Of a stretch of 34,842 nt of DNA, positions 12,207 to 18,862 are shown in pieces. The stretch's first letter is position 1. Each line of letters begins with the position of its first letter. A model generated the notes under the pieces. That model searched no databases. It saw nothing but the letters and a program-made list of their open reading frames with translations, and was not told the origin of the DNA. This stretch comes from an uncultured Helicobacter sp. (GTDB lineage Bacteria; Campylobacterota; Campylobacteria; Campylobacterales; Helicobacteraceae): assembly GCA_947177485.1 (NCBI GenBank), contig CAMWUR010000022.1, positions 1-34,842 of the forward strand, in the 5' to 3' direction. The position numbers and the translations under genes are program-made.

Positions 12207-13075
12207 AGTTTCTGCATTTTATCTTTGGAATCATGCAGCAAGTTGAGCGTTATTTGGCTGCAAAAAGCGTGAGTGAACGAACAATTATTTTTATTTTATC
12301 AGGACTATGTATGGGTGTTTTATCATGGAGATTTATTGTTCCAACGATAGAAGAATATACAAAGGATTTTTATAGATTAAGCGATTTGCGCAAGGCAGAT
12401 TGGCAAAGCGTAATCGAGCAGGAAACGTATTTGCAACACTTCAAAAATAAGCAAGTTGCATTAGAAATCTTGACGGAACAAATCCAAGAAAGTTATGTTG
12501 AGATTGAGCAAACACACAGGATATGGCAGGATATTTTGGGCGAAATTTCCAAGATTATTGTGGATACGGATAGGATTCCTAAAGAGATTCAAACAACAAA
12601 TGATGGGAATAGTTTAATTCTCAAGGGAAATGCAGAATGGTTATCTTTATTAGAGCTCATTAATTTGCTAGAGCGAAACATTGTCTTTTTGCAAGTCGAT
12701 TCGATTGCATACACACAGAATCTCGAGGAATTAAATTATGAATTAAAAATTAGTAACCCTATCAAGACATTTGAAACAATTGGGCGCAACGAAGATGCGA
12801 TTCTAAGATTTTTGGACAACTCATCGCACATTCGAACGTCTGTGCCAAAGATTGAATTTCCAAAAGTCTTGACTACTCCACAACAAACAGCAGAGAATCC
12901 ATCGATTGTCGTTCAGGCTTTTATGCTGAATCATGCAAAAATCAATGGAGAATGGTTTGTTGTTGGTGAACATAAAAATGGGATTCGATTGATTGGAATC
13001 GAAAAATGTGGCGTGATGCTCGAAAGGGCGCAGCAGAAAGTGTGCATTAATATAGACATTTCAAGGAAAAAGTGA
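12203..13075 (+). CDS. PilO-PilP-like (MshJ-MshK-like) fused assembly protein
   Basis: 290 aa. After a short cytoplasmic N-terminus comes one membrane helix (about 26-44), then a coiled coil (about 55-115) and a region of about 125-195 with the PilO/GspM ferredoxin-like pattern (LILKGNAEWLSLLELINLLE). The C-terminal 60 residues read like a PilP/GspC homology region (INGEWFVVGEHKNGIRLIGI), which in other systems is a separate protein touching the secretin. I therefore read it as a PilO-PilP fusion; the fold matches are by eye only. It overlaps both neighbours by 1-4 bases and lies directly before the secretin, as expected for its partner. Confidence 0.55.
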   Translation: MKFLHFIFGIMQQVERYLAAKSVSERTIIFILSGLCMGVLSWRFIVPTIEEYTKDFYRLSDLRKADWQSVIEQETYLQHFKNKQVALEILTEQIQESYVEIEQTHRIWQDILGEISKIIVDTDRIPKEIQTTNDGNSLILKGNAEWLSLLELINLLERNIVFLQVDSIAYTQNLEELNYELKISNPIKTFETIGRNEDAILRFLDNSSHIRTSVPKIEFPKVLTTPQQTAENPSIVVQAFMLNHAKINGEWFVVGEHKNGIRLIGIEKCGVMLERAQQKVCINIDISRKK

Positions 13076-14535
13076 TGAATAAATGGTTTTTAGGATTTTT
13101 GCTGGCAACTGCAATTGCATGTCCCATTAGTATTGTCAGTAATGGTGAGGTTTCCTTAGAAGAACTTCTTGTTAAATTGAGTCTCGAGTGCAAAATGAAT
13201 ATTGTTGTTAAGGATTCCTATTCTACACAACGAATCAAAGAAATTTTTCCCATTCTCCATCTTTCGCAGATACCCATTCAGGATAGCATGGAGGTTTTGC
13301 TCCATGAAAATGGGCTTTTTTATGAAATAGAAGATTCTGTATTGCGGATTTTTGGAACAAAAACGCAAGTCTTTCAAATCCATTATGTTGCAACAGAACG
13401 AAGTGGTGTGAGCAGCACAGAGGTATCAATTAGTCGTAACGATGGCGGCATGGGTTACCGTGCAAATAGTGGGAACGAACATGATATTTTTGAAAAGAGT
13501 GGCGGAAGTCGTTCCGGAGTCAATATTACGACAGAAGATAAACTCAATTTTTGGAGCACGATTGCAACAGAATTGCACCATATTCTCTATCGTCCCGGTG
13601 AAATGTCGCCCATGCATGTTGCCTCGCAAGATACGAATGGAACTGCAAGAACATCAAATATTATTATCAATAAAGCTGCGGGATTAATCACGGTTACAGG
13701 GACAAAATCACAACTAGAACGCGTTACAAATTATTTGGATATTTTGCAAGATTCTTTAACGCGACAAGTCATGATTGACCTTTCAATTTTGACAATTACT
13801 CATAATAATACACATACAACAGGAATCGATTGGAATCAACTCTATTCGCTCCAAAATTTTAGCACAATTCCACAAACAGATAGCACACAAAATGGCTTTA
13901 TGCAGTTAAGCAATGGAGAGTTTAGCTATTCTCTCAACCTTTTTCCACAGAATATTACTCTAAATAGAATTGTAGAGTTTTTAAGTCAATATGGTGAAGT
14001 TAGTACATTATCCAACCCTAAATTGCTTACATTAAATAATCAGCCCGCTATGATAAGTGTGGGCGATGTGATTCGTTACCGCAAAAACACGGTATTTCAA
14101 AGCAGTGCAAATACGACAACAAATACAAATACAGATACAGAATATCCCTCTGTTTTTGCGGGTGTTTTGCTCGATATTACGCCTTCTATTTTTGAAAATA
14201 ATCTTATGCTAAAAATCAATCCTTCAATCACGAGTTTAAAAGGGCGCGAGATTCAAAATGCGGCACAAGCATTGGATTCCCCACCAAATCTAAGTGCAAA
14301 TCAGCTTTCGTCTATTGTTTATGTGAGCAATGGCAAGAAAATTGTGATTGGCGGATTAATCCGAAAAAATTCCAATATGGAATATTCAGGCATTCCTATT
14401 CTTATGGATATTCCTTTATTAAGTTATCTTTTTTCTTATAAACAAGAGATTCAAAACACCGTAGAAATGGTCATTGTCATTACGCCTTATATTGTTCCTA
14501 TTGATAATATCAATTCTATGGAGGAAAGTCAATGA
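13075..14535 (+). CDS. Type II/IV secretin (GspD/PilQ/MshL/CtsD family)
   Basis: Outer-membrane secretin ring subunit. N-terminal signal sequence (KWFLGFLLATAIACPIS), an STN domain at about 24-85, a poorly conserved N-domain region to about 230, then the secretin core (about 300-475) with SNPKLLTLNNQPAMISVGD, VYVSNGKKIVIGGLI and the terminal MVIVITPYIV. At 486 aa it is short, closer to MshL or Campylobacter CtsD than to classical GspD. The in-frame GTG at 13072 is an alternative start, but ATG 13075 overlaps the upstream TGA by one base and is preferred. Its gap-free place before the ATPase gene indicates one machine. Confidence 0.9.
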   Translation: MNKWFLGFLLATAIACPISIVSNGEVSLEELLVKLSLECKMNIVVKDSYSTQRIKEIFPILHLSQIPIQDSMEVLLHENGLFYEIEDSVLRIFGTKTQVFQIHYVATERSGVSSTEVSISRNDGGMGYRANSGNEHDIFEKSGGSRSGVNITTEDKLNFWSTIATELHHILYRPGEMSPMHVASQDTNGTARTSNIIINKAAGLITVTGTKSQLERVTNYLDILQDSLTRQVMIDLSILTITHNNTHTTGIDWNQLYSLQNFSTIPQTDSTQNGFMQLSNGEFSYSLNLFPQNITLNRIVEFLSQYGEVSTLSNPKLLTLNNQPAMISVGDVIRYRKNTVFQSSANTTTNTNTDTEYPSVFAGVLLDITPSIFENNLMLKINPSITSLKGREIQNAAQALDSPPNLSANQLSSIVYVSNGKKIVIGGLIRKNSNMEYSGIPILMDIPLLSYLFSYKQEIQNTVEMVIVITPYIVPIDNINSMEESQ

Positions 14536-16085
14536 AACATATTGATTGGGAAGAATGTTACAAAAAATGCCTCGATGGCTCGATGAAGCCTGAAGACATA
14601 GAATGTTCTCTTGATGAGGTTTTGCGCAATCTTGCACAGATTGCAAAATTGCCCTATATCGAGCTACAGCCTGAAAAAATTGATGCAACTTTGTTGCGTT
14701 CCTTTTCTGTTTTTAATGCGACAAAATTTTCAACTCTGCCGCTGAAAACTGACGATGCTAAAATCCATTTTGCTTCGCTCAATCCTTTTAATCCACTTAT
14801 GCGCCATACTCTCCAAAATATTTTTGGGACTAAAGAATATTCTTTCTGTTTTGCTTCGCCACAATCTTTTGCATTTGTGCTCGAATGGGTGAGTGTCGAA
14901 GCAAAAGCATTGTTGCTGCAAACGGCATTACTAGAGGAACATAAAGCCCCAATCCAAGATTCCACAACTTTGCAAAGTTTTGTGGCATTATTACTCGAAG
15001 AAGCGTTGCGATTATGCGCAAGTGATGTGCATATTGAATCGAGAGATGATACGTCGATTCGCATGCGTATCGATGGTTGTCTTATCGAAAGATTTTGCTT
15101 TGATTTTGCATTATTTGCGCCGCTTTCTTCACAGCTAAAGCTGATTTCTAAGCTCGATATTTCCGAAAAACGCAAGGGGCAAGATGGGCGATTCTGTTTG
15201 CCATTTTTTCCAAAAGTAGATTTTAGAATCTCGACAATCCCAATTGCAGGTGGAGAATCGATTGTGATACGAATCCTCGATAATTCACGGCAAAAACTGA
15301 CGCTCAATCAATTAGGATTTGCATTGGATTCCATAGAAATTTTGCGGCGAACAATCCAAAAAACACATGGGATTTTGTTTGTTACAGGACCAACAGGAAG
15401 TGGCAAATCAACGACTTTGTATGCGTTGTTACAGCTTTGCGACAAAGAACGACAAAAAATCATCACTATCGAAGACCCGATTGAATACGAAATGCAAGGA
15501 ATCACGCAAGTTGTGCTCAATAATAAAATCAATTTTGGTTTTTCAGAGGTTTTGCGCAATATTTTGCGTCAAGACCCAGATATTCTGATGATTGGCGAGG
15601 TGCGAGACCAAGAAACTTTGCAGCTCGCGTTTCAGGCTTCGCTCACAGGACATCTTGTGCTTTGTACTCTACATACAAATGATGCGCTCGAAAGCATCAC
15701 ACGTCTTTTGGATATGGGAATCGAACCCTATTTTCTCGCTTCTGCCTTATTGCTTGTTGTCTCGCAACGGCTCGTGCCAAAACTTTGCCCACATTGTCGT
15801 GAATCGTATTCGATAGACTATGAAGATTCTAACACGACTTTTTATCGTTCTAAAGGCTGTGCGCGGTGCTATGGGCGGGGGTTTTTGGGACGAGAATTAC
15901 TCTATGAAATTTTACCAATGACAAAACATCTAAAAGAGGCGCTGCATCAGAAAGCCACTCAAAAAGAGCTCCTAAAAATCGCTAAAAACGAGGGCTTTGT
16001 GCGTATGGTTGAGCAGGGTTTGACAAAGGCAAAATCGGGCTTGATGACGCTTGAAATTTTACATGGAATCCAGAATGACTTTTGA
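14532..16085 (+). CDS. GspE/PilB-type assembly ATPase (CtsE/MshE-like)
   Basis: Hexameric ATPase that drives pilus or pseudopilus extension. A GspE N-terminal domain (about 20-130) precedes the core. Walker A GPTGSGKST is near 286-294, the Asp box in ITIEDPIEYE near 315, Walker B ILMIGEVRD near 350, the His box TLHTNDA near 380. A zinc-binding tetracysteine follows (LCPHC near 417-421 and CARC near 442-445), typical of the GspE/PilB extension ATPases and absent from retraction ATPases such as PilT. 517 aa. ATGA overlap with the secretin gene. No pilT-like retraction ATPase is in the window. Confidence 0.93.
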   Translation: MKHIDWEECYKKCLDGSMKPEDIECSLDEVLRNLAQIAKLPYIELQPEKIDATLLRSFSVFNATKFSTLPLKTDDAKIHFASLNPFNPLMRHTLQNIFGTKEYSFCFASPQSFAFVLEWVSVEAKALLLQTALLEEHKAPIQDSTTLQSFVALLLEEALRLCASDVHIESRDDTSIRMRIDGCLIERFCFDFALFAPLSSQLKLISKLDISEKRKGQDGRFCLPFFPKVDFRISTIPIAGGESIVIRILDNSRQKLTLNQLGFALDSIEILRRTIQKTHGILFVTGPTGSGKSTTLYALLQLCDKERQKIITIEDPIEYEMQGITQVVLNNKINFGFSEVLRNILRQDPDILMIGEVRDQETLQLAFQASLTGHLVLCTLHTNDALESITRLLDMGIEPYFLASALLLVVSQRLVPKLCPHCRESYSIDYEDSNTTFYRSKGCARCYGRGFLGRELLYEILPMTKHLKEALHQKATQKELLKIAKNEGFVRMVEQGLTKAKSGLMTLEILHGIQNDF

Positions 16086-17274
16086 GATTATTTATAGCCA
16101 AAATGATGTTTTGCACACCACAGAATTTCAGGCAGAAAGTCGTGAAAGTGCTATCCAACATTTTAAACAAAATCAAAATATCCAACTCATAAAAATCACA
16201 CAGATTGCGACAAAAAGAAGCCCACTTTTTTGCAAAACTTTGAGCACAAAAGAGCTTTCTATTGTATTCTATCAATTTGCCATTCTCTTAAATGCTGCTA
16301 TTCCATTGCGCAATCTGCTCGAGAGTCTTGCACAATATCCCCACCCTAAAGTTCAGGCAATGTTTGCGCATGTTTTGCGCGCTGTACAAAATGGGCAACA
16401 GCTATGCGATGGATTTGCGCCTTTTCGTAAAGAGCTTGGCATTGGAATTGAGCTCATCGCCTTAGGAGAAAAAAGCGGAAATCTACCCCAAACTCTGCTG
16501 CTTTTTGTTGATTTTTTGCGCAATAAAGAGCAAAATCAGAAGCGCCTTTTAAACGCGCTTGCGTATCCAATTTTTTTATTCATTGCAATTATTGGTGCGC
16601 TGTTTATCATTATCGGATTTCTATTGCCCCAATTTGAAAGTCTATTTATGAGTTTTAATAAACAGCTTCCTCCGCTTACACAATTCCTTTTTTCTTTGCA
16701 GATTCTCATAACACCTCTTTTTTTGGCAGGCTACGCGATAAGTTCTTGCGCAATCGTACTTTTTTGGATTTTGTTGCGTCAAAATGAAACATTGAATCGA
16801 AGCTTTGATGCATTCTTGTTGCGGATTCCATTTATAGGAAATCTTTTACGTGCGCAACATCTATTCTTTTATTTTTCGACAATGAAACTCCTATTTGCCG
16901 CAGGCTTTGTGCTCGATAATGTCCTCGACCTTTGCACCAAAACATGTGCAAATAGCGCCTTGCGTGCGCGACTTGCAATGATTCCAACGTATCTCAAACA
17001 GGGGCAAACCTTGAGTGATTCGATGCAGCATGTGCATGTTTTTACACCTATTGTGCTTGCGCTCATTGCGGCGGCGCAAAAGAGTGGCGAAATGGAAAAA
17101 ATGCTCCACACAGCCGCCGAGCTCTATGGGAGCGAATCGGCGCACAAACAAGCGCAGCTACTTGCGCTCATCGAACCGCTTATGACTTGCCTTATGGCAG
17201 GTGTTGTGCTGCTCATCGCATTGGGCGTGTTTTTACCTTTGTGGGAGCTGAATGCAGTTGGCGCGCAGTGGTAG
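16075..17274 (+). CDS. GspF/PilC-type inner-membrane platform protein (CtsF/MshG-like)
   Basis: Polytopic platform protein on which pilins are assembled. It has two repeated GspF domains of about 120 residues, each ending in membrane helices: LAYPIFLFIAIIGALFIIIG near 165-190, FLAGYAISSCAIVLFWILL near 220-240, and a final helix near 370-395. 399 aa from ATG 16075. The in-frame TTG 16051 and ATG 16063 are alternatives that add 8 or 4 residues. It overlaps the ATPase gene by 11 bases and is the last gene of the operon, converging on glmU with one base between the stop codons. No pseudopilin or prepilin peptidase gene follows. Confidence 0.9.
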   Translation: MTFEIIYSQNDVLHTTEFQAESRESAIQHFKQNQNIQLIKITQIATKRSPLFCKTLSTKELSIVFYQFAILLNAAIPLRNLLESLAQYPHPKVQAMFAHVLRAVQNGQQLCDGFAPFRKELGIGIELIALGEKSGNLPQTLLLFVDFLRNKEQNQKRLLNALAYPIFLFIAIIGALFIIIGFLLPQFESLFMSFNKQLPPLTQFLFSLQILITPLFLAGYAISSCAIVLFWILLRQNETLNRSFDAFLLRIPFIGNLLRAQHLFFYFSTMKLLFAAGFVLDNVLDLCTKTCANSALRARLAMIPTYLKQGQTLSDSMQHVHVFTPIVLALIAAAQKSGEMEKMLHTAAELYGSESAHKQAQLLALIEPLMTCLMAGVVLLIALGVFLPLWELNAVGAQW

Positions 17275-17275
17275 G

Positions 17276-18826
17276 CTAGCGTCCCCCACCCACGAAATGC
17301 AGCAGCTCGAGCTCATCGCCTTCTTTGGGTATGTGGCTGCTCCATTGGTCTTTTTTGAGTACTTCTCCATTGAGTGCAATTGCAACAACTTTAGAATCCA
17401 CGCCTAATTTGCGCAAAATACCTTGTACATGCAAGCCTTTTTCCACACTCTGCCATTCTCCATTAATCTTGAGCTGTGTTTGTGCTTTGGTTTCTGTGTT
17501 GGTTGTTGCCACAGGCTGCTGCCAGATTCCGTTAAAAAAACGTTCATAGAATCCATCGATATTTGCCTGCGGTGTGCGCGAGATACCAAGTGCACCATTT
17601 GGAATATCTTTGGTAATCGTGCTACCTGCTGCAATCATAATACAATCACCAATATTCACCGGTGCAACAAGCTGTGTATCACTGCCGATGAACACATCTT
17701 TGCCAATTTTTGTGTGATGTTTTTCCTTGCCATCATAATTGCAAGTAATCACACCCGCGCCAATGTTGCTGCCACTGCCAATCTCGCAATCGCCCAAATA
17801 ACTCAAATGCCCTGCCTTGATGCCATGCAAAATTGCCTTTTTAGTTTCAACAAAATTTCCAATATGAGCTTTGGTAATCATACTCTGTGGGCGAATATGC
17901 GCAAAAGGTCCCACATCGCTGCACACAATCTTACTATCTTCAATCACACTATGCGCCTTAATGTGTGCGTCTTCAAGCATACATGCACCAAGAATCTGCA
18001 CGCCACTTTCAAGCTCGCATTCACCGCTAAATTGCGCACGCGAATCGATATAGATTGTGTGAGGCAAGTGCATGCGCACCCCCGCTTTTTGCCAGTGTGT
18101 GCGGATTTTATGTAACATTATTTCTTCGGCGATATTTAAATCTAGCTTAGTATTGACACCTTTAAAGTTCTCCTCGTTCACAATGAGTGAAACAAGCTCT
18201 TTGGAATCAGCGAGCAGAGAATGAATGATGTCGGTCAGATAATATTCTTTTTGTGCATTATCGTTTGTGAGCTTTGGCAGATATGCATGCAAAATGGGCA
18301 ACGGGAAGAGATAGACGCCGGCATTGACGGTCGTGATTTGTTTTTGCAGCTCTGTTGCGTCCTTTTCTTCGACAATGCCGATGATTTTTTTACCATTTAG
18401 AATCACGCGTCCATAGCCGCTGCCATCGTCTAGCTCGAGAATGCTCATCACGGTCGATTCCGCACCAAACTCGAGAAATTGTTGCAGCTCTTCGGAGCAC
18501 ACAAGCGGCATATCGCCATTGAGGACAAGCAGCCTTTCATGCTTTGGTGTGTATTGTTGTAAAAATGAGGCAATCGCCCCACCCGTGCCGGGGAGATTAT
18601 GATGGTCTTGACGCACGCAGCGCACACCAATAAACGAATCGCGCACCATTTTTTCGACTTTGTCAGCATGATGAAAGACGACAACGCTCACATCATCGCT
18701 GATTTTTTGTGCTTCATTGATGCTATAATAGAGCATCTCGCGTCCGCAAAGCTTGTGCAAGACTTTGGGCGTGCTCGAATGCATGCGGCTTCCTGCACCT
18801 GCTGCCAAAACCACAACAGAACACAT
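17276..18826 (-). CDS. glmU: GlmU fused to a C-terminal ThiS-like sulfur carrier domain
   Basis: Bifunctional GlmU makes UDP-GlcNAc: C-terminal acetyltransfer to glucosamine-1-phosphate, then N-terminal uridylyl transfer. Residues 4-22 hold the pyrophosphorylase loop LAAGAGSRM with PKVLHKL; NGDMPLV near 100 and VNAGVYLF near 168 follow. The left-handed beta-helix (about 250-425) has GPFAHIRP, GHLSYLGD and NYDGKEKHHT. Helicobacter GlmU normally ends near residue 430. Here a linker of about 20 residues leads in frame into residues 452-516 (17276-17473), which match ThiS: ALNGEVLKKDQW and LELLHFVGGGR. ThiS is the sulfur donor for the thiamin thiazole ring. No in-frame ATG separates the parts. 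The last residue, Arg, follows the Gly-Gly-Gly end that ThiS usually exposes. The start ATG is preceded by AAGGAGC. Confidence 0.92.
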   Translation of the reverse strand: MCSVVVLAAGAGSRMHSSTPKVLHKLCGREMLYYSINEAQKISDDVSVVVFHHADKVEKMVRDSFIGVRCVRQDHHNLPGTGGAIASFLQQYTPKHERLLVLNGDMPLVCSEELQQFLEFGAESTVMSILELDDGSGYGRVILNGKKIIGIVEEKDATELQKQITTVNAGVYLFPLPILHAYLPKLTNDNAQKEYYLTDIIHSLLADSKELVSLIVNEENFKGVNTKLDLNIAEEIMLHKIRTHWQKAGVRMHLPHTIYIDSRAQFSGECELESGVQILGACMLEDAHIKAHSVIEDSKIVCSDVGPFAHIRPQSMITKAHIGNFVETKKAILHGIKAGHLSYLGDCEIGSGSNIGAGVITCNYDGKEKHHTKIGKDVFIGSDTQLVAPVNIGDCIMIAAGSTITKDIPNGALGISRTPQANIDGFYERFFNGIWQQPVATTNTETKAQTQLKINGEWQSVEKGLHVQGILRKLGVDSKVVAIALNGEVLKKDQWSSHIPKEGDELELLHFVGGGR

Positions 18827-18862
18827 TTCTTGCTCCTTTGTTATTGTGAGGCTTTTTAGATA

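Follow-up and report, generated by a model that had tools for sequence, protein, structure and literature searches.

The cell-wall enzyme GlmU and the sulfur carrier ThiS are joined in one reading frame in an uncultured Helicobacter sp. (genome G000), and this fusion is real, conserved, narrowly distributed and unusual in its partner. In the explanation that we regard as the probable one, it is a true fusion whose carrier would work in place: a JAMM protease would trim ThiS, a MoeB-like E1 would activate it, and ThiG would take its sulfur while ThiS is still attached to GlmU. In the window (the whole stretch of DNA that was analysed, 34,842 nucleotides), the fused frame is located at 17276–18826 on the minus strand and runs through GlmU, a linker and ThiS as 516 codons without a stop. 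It has an ATG start, a TAG stop and a good Shine-Dalgarno site, AAGGAG (18833–18838, minus strand; duplex energy −7.9 kcal/mol). The earlier note on this DNA had described such a stop-free frame, and family models confirmed its parts above their cut-offs.

The GlmU part comprises residues 1–432 (17531–18826, minus strand) with the uridyltransferase and the left-handed beta-helix acetyltransferase. The full-length bifunctional GlmU model NF010939 matched residues 2–432 with 646.1 bits (cut-off 592). The catalytic residues of both domains were compared by alignment to 1hv9, and the equivalents of R18, K25, D105, R333, K351, H363 and Y366 (E. coli GlmU numbering) were identical; most GlmU catalytic positions were invariant among 29 relatives. 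GlmU is followed by a Thr/Gln/Ala linker of 19 residues (433–451; 17474–17530, minus strand) and by the ThiS domain (residues 452–515; 17282–17473, minus strand), which ends in HFVGGG. A complete ThiS was recognised at residues 453–515 by Pfam PF02597 (48 bits, cut-off 22.5) and by the NCBIfam thiS model TIGR01683 (65 bits, cut-off 37). Whereas ThiS is normally a free protein of 65–70 amino acids, here it is joined behind GlmU. Genes resembling type II secretion/competence D, E and F are located on the plus strand at 13072–17274, convergent with glmU-thiS, and end 1 base from its stop.

The same fused frame was open in the sister species G001 and G003 at approximately 90% identity and in G002 at 63% identity, i.e., in four of the five genomes of the genus, with G004 as the exception. 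The ratio dN/dS, calculated for G000 against G001 and G003, was 0.03–0.04 in ThiS, about 0.06 in GlmU and about 0.2 in the linker (0.03, 0.055 and 0.21, respectively, against G003). In ThiS, G000 and G003 differed by 29 synonymous and 7 nonsynonymous changes, and among close relatives the linker had one whole-codon, in-frame indel. A frame kept in this way, with low dN/dS and a whole-codon indel, is expected to be translated and useful, and by these ratios the ThiS part is under strong purifying selection.

When the ThiS domain was modelled alone with AlphaFold, the pLDDT was 93.6, and the top fold matches in the PDB were the ThiS structures 3cwi, 1zud, 1f0z and 1tyg. The domain is thus predicted to retain the beta-grasp fold of ThiS. 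It shares family and fold with free ThiS, as seen in E. coli (1f0z) and in the ThiS–ThiF (1zud) and ThiS–ThiG (1tyg) complexes. In the full-length model of the fusion, the ThiS domain was folded and had a loose tail (511–516), linker residues 433–446 were predicted to be disordered (pLDDT <50), and the beta-helix part of GlmU was predicted poorly, which may be expected when one chain of a trimer is modelled from few sequences. In the ubiquitin-like fold, the amino end of the ThiS type points away from the reactive tail. Attachment to GlmU therefore need not hinder E1 or ThiG, and one would expect three functional ThiS arms on each GlmU trimer.

The linker and its surroundings also bear on whether free ThiS is made after all, either by internal initiation or by proteolysis of the linker, the fusion then being a precursor or by-product. 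The earlier note had correctly observed that no ATG opens ThiS, but the linker does hold one in-frame GTG (codon 439; 17510–17512, minus strand), its sole in-frame ATG, GTG or TTG and a weak candidate for internal initiation. All three close species retain this GTG, at codon 439 or 440, behind a weak to moderate Shine-Dalgarno site (−3.5 to −4.7 kcal/mol), and the predicted disorder of the linker makes protease access plausible. The pairing in G000 (−3.5 kcal/mol) is, however, far weaker than that at the glmU start. In G002, moreover, GlmU continues into ThiS with almost no linker, the usual position of the ThiS start codon is ATA, and no in-frame ATG, GTG or TTG was found over the last ~40 GlmU codons. 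ThiS is nevertheless kept in that genome, where neither internal initiation nor linker cleavage would serve. Production of free ThiS was judged rather unlikely, and ThiS displayed on GlmU rather than lost, one of the two options named in the earlier note, is the best supported view.

The family name of the fused domain proves little by itself, since the HcyS-like protein of G000 is likewise accepted by TIGR01683, which therefore does not separate the two. The domain clustered with glmU-linked ThiS, apart from the HcyS-like carriers, with support of 100/100. This type of ThiS was present in 89 of the 90 family genomes having a full ThiG (121 genomes, counted by hand); three of the 121 had ThiS without a full ThiG, and these are incomplete assemblies. 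The other ThiS-family proteins of G000 are one HcyS-like and one MoaD-like protein. No other ThiG-type carrier was found in G000, so the fused ThiS is probably the thiazole sulfur carrier.

Of the genes that the earlier note had named for a genome check (a separate thiS, thiF, thiG and thiH), thiG was found in G000 (contig C11, 31577–32314; E 3.8e-102), with no second ThiG-type carrier. ThiC was also present. No ThiH, ThiO or ThiF-type E1 was found above cut-off in this genome, which is rated 99.98% complete, nor was such an E1 found beside thiG; the thiazole branch may consequently be incomplete or use unknown steps. A ThiH match of 33 bits was below cut-off and was judged from its sequence to be a different radical SAM enzyme, with a probable role in menaquinone synthesis. 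A single PF00899 E1 was detected in G000, which is MoeB-like and has no rhodanese domain. All three carriers would then depend on this one detected E1. Its gene is the last at L041:10015–11903 (contig C21), after an HcyS-like carrier gene, whose product ends in GGGSFCGFF, and a short secreted-type ORF.

In the Wolinella methionine route, the carrier HcyS has a residue after Gly-Gly and works with one E1 and a JAMM protease. G000 resembles this route in having a residue after Gly-Gly, one E1 and a JAMM gene. If the ThiS domain had been repurposed, for GlmU regulation, as a ubiquitin-like tag or in a different sulfur pathway, for example the synthesis of methionine via a protein thiocarboxylate, the co-occurrence of these parts with the HcyS-like carrier would fit, as would the failure to find ThiH, ThiO and a ThiF-type E1. 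This reading is nonetheless improbable, because ThiC and ThiG are retained, the ThiS type tracks ThiG across the family, sequence and fold remain those of ThiS, and the tree places the domain with the ThiG-linked type and not with HcyS. The arrangement of the genes also differs: in G011, those for the HcyS-like carrier, E1 and JAMM lie side by side, whereas in G000 the JAMM gene lies away from the HcyS-like gene and adjoins one for a sulfite reductase with TusA.

The more probable reading, a ThiS trimmed and used on GlmU, draws on the end of the protein. The earlier note had taken HFVGGG as the protein end; the motif is present, but a one-residue extension, Arg516, follows GGG and is itself followed by the stop codon (17276–17281, minus strand). 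The encoded protein ends in GGGR, which leaves the functional Gly-Gly short of the C-terminus. Since ThiS chemistry requires a free Gly-Gly end, the sequence suggests that the encoded end has to be trimmed; the same would apply to the free but tailed ThiS proteins of related genera. The tails found after the ThiS GGG in the genus are R, RLL, RCLP, RS and SR, the proteins of the relatives ending in GGGRLL, GGGRCLP, GGGRS and GGGSR.

G000 has one JAMM/Prok-JAB protein (contig C59), with 86 bits (Pfam cut-off 25) and an intact E...HxH-x7-S-x2-D motif; it scored under the cut-off of the desampylase model. JAMM genes (PF14464) were found in 20 of the 121 family genomes (genera g1, g2, g5, g8 and g9), and 3 of 22 genomes from elsewhere in the order also had one. 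Among 68 genomes sampled, residues after the ThiS GG were present in 17 of the 18 with JAMM and in none of the 50 without, and this association was seen for ThiS fused to GlmU or not. Fisher's p was 4e-15, a value in which related genomes are not independent; on the GlmU tree, the tail state changed five times, and only two of these changes are well-supported independent pairs. The exception was G048, with JAMM present and ThiS ending in GGG. By taking the end as GGG, the earlier note had missed both the extra residue and the association with JAMM. From these data we infer that JAMM trims the fused ThiS, and the link between JAMM and ThiS may be a more general result than the fusion.

In G000, the JAMM gene is directly followed by a gene for a sulfite/nitrite reductase with a C-terminal TusA domain (the pair at L146:379–3090, contig C59), and the same pair was observed in G002 (L151:1078–3786). 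Five genomes of genus g9 (G012, G023, G131, G032 and G133) have a JAMM gene, and no such ThiS or full ThiG was found in them.

In the proposed working of the fusion, the GlmU part would produce UDP-GlcNAc as usual, and each GlmU trimer would bear three ThiS domains, each tethered at its N-terminus by a flexible linker and with its C-terminus exposed. The JAMM metalloprotease would remove the residue or residues behind the Gly-Gly of ThiS. The exposed Gly would be adenylated by the single MoeB-like E1 and ThiS then thiocarboxylated, and ThiG would take the sulfur from ThiS still joined to GlmU. JAMM proteases act on ubiquitin-like carriers in the CysO-Mec+ system of Mycobacterium and, as desampylases, in archaea; the putative substrate here differs in being a thiazole carrier fused to GlmU. 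In a wider form, which we hold tentatively and at less than even confidence, ThiS would be a precursor needing JAMM trimming in the Campylobacterota with JAMM, and in one genus this precursor would work permanently on the GlmU trimer, with one E1 for three carriers.

Among the matches listed for 397 Campylobacterota genomes, which make a statement on the stronger matches, the long frame was found in G000 and G002 only, i.e., only in this genus, and the fusion was absent from the other genomes listed for the family and the phylum. No GlmU–ThiS fusion was found in the literature, a weak negative because 'ThiS' cannot be distinguished from 'this' in searching. Other candidate fusions were rejected: in G017, where a 594-residue open frame had suggested one, stops lie between the two genes; in Sulfurimonadaceae (L073) and in Oxalobacteraceae OM1 (L132, where the match had extended to residue 516), GlmU is terminated by a stop codon and unrelated sequence makes up the rest. 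A ThiS-like domain within a 292-residue open frame (G297:C2:107794–107994) is possibly another ThiS fusion.

In many other genera of the family, glmU is immediately followed by a separate thiS in the same orientation. In G004, from the same genus as G000, the genes are also separate, and the stop codon of glmU and the start codon of thiS share bases in the sequence GTGA, which makes a simple origin available: the tandem glmU and thiS of Helicobacteraceae would have become fused via loss of the separate stop and start. Absence from sister strains had been named in the earlier note as counting against the fusion; three of the four other genomes of the genus have it, and G004 does not. In the IleS tree, G002 was placed with the unfused G004, and a clade of fused genomes was rejected (AU p 0.0001). 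The GlmU and ThiS tree weakly favoured the fused clade (83/89), with the alternative not rejected (p 0.18). The sequences would fit two separate fusions as well as a single one that was later split in G004.

This history also bears on the link, suggested in the earlier note, between thiamin sulfur chemistry and the supply of cell-wall precursors. Such coupling, for instance by tuning one activity to the other, is very improbable: the physical linkage and the long-standing neighbourhood of glmU and thiS would agree with it, but the genes are separate and adjacent in most genera and in the sister G004, the two functions share no substrate and no known regulator, fusions exist both with and without a linker, and the overlap in G004 offers a simple origin. 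The fusion is most likely near-neutral and not a regulatory device. A sequencing or assembly error at the GlmU/ThiS junction, for which the 97 contigs of the G000 assembly might speak, has a negligible probability and was ruled out, because independent assemblies share the fused frame with many synonymous differences.

Compared with free ThiS, a phylogenetic partner of ThiG, the domain described here is distinguished by its position behind GlmU, by the residue after GGG and by the lack of a detected ThiF-type E1 beside ThiG. Fusions of ThiS are of a known kind; GlmU as the partner was found nowhere else here. Known fusions include ThiS–ThiG, MoaD–MoaE, actinobacterial sulfite reductase–ThiS and aldehyde ferredoxin oxidoreductase–MoaD (Iyer et al. 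2006, PMC1779556). As in these, the carrier domain is placed on another enzyme, and in the sulfite reductase and oxidoreductase cases it is also at the carboxyl end. Their partners, however, are sulfur or cofactor enzymes, whereas GlmU is a cell-wall enzyme, and the portion of that paper used here names no fusion with it. In the same portion, JAB proteases were proposed to free or trim ThiS and MoaD fused to other proteins, and thiamin pathways were reported to lack JAB proteins altogether (Iyer et al. 2006, PMC1779556). The JAMM and tail data suggest an exception to that absence.

The fusion indicates that selection can be maintained on a small ubiquitin-like sulfur carrier even when it is linked to an essential enzyme unrelated to it. 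This agrees with the layout of such carriers, in which the chemistry takes place at the carboxyl end and a fusion partner can be accommodated at the amino end. The co-occurrence of JAMM with tailed ThiS suggests that JAMM proteases may contribute to the synthesis of thiamin in certain bacteria. If this is true, a deubiquitinase-type enzyme would serve vitamin B1 synthesis in JAMM-bearing Campylobacterota.
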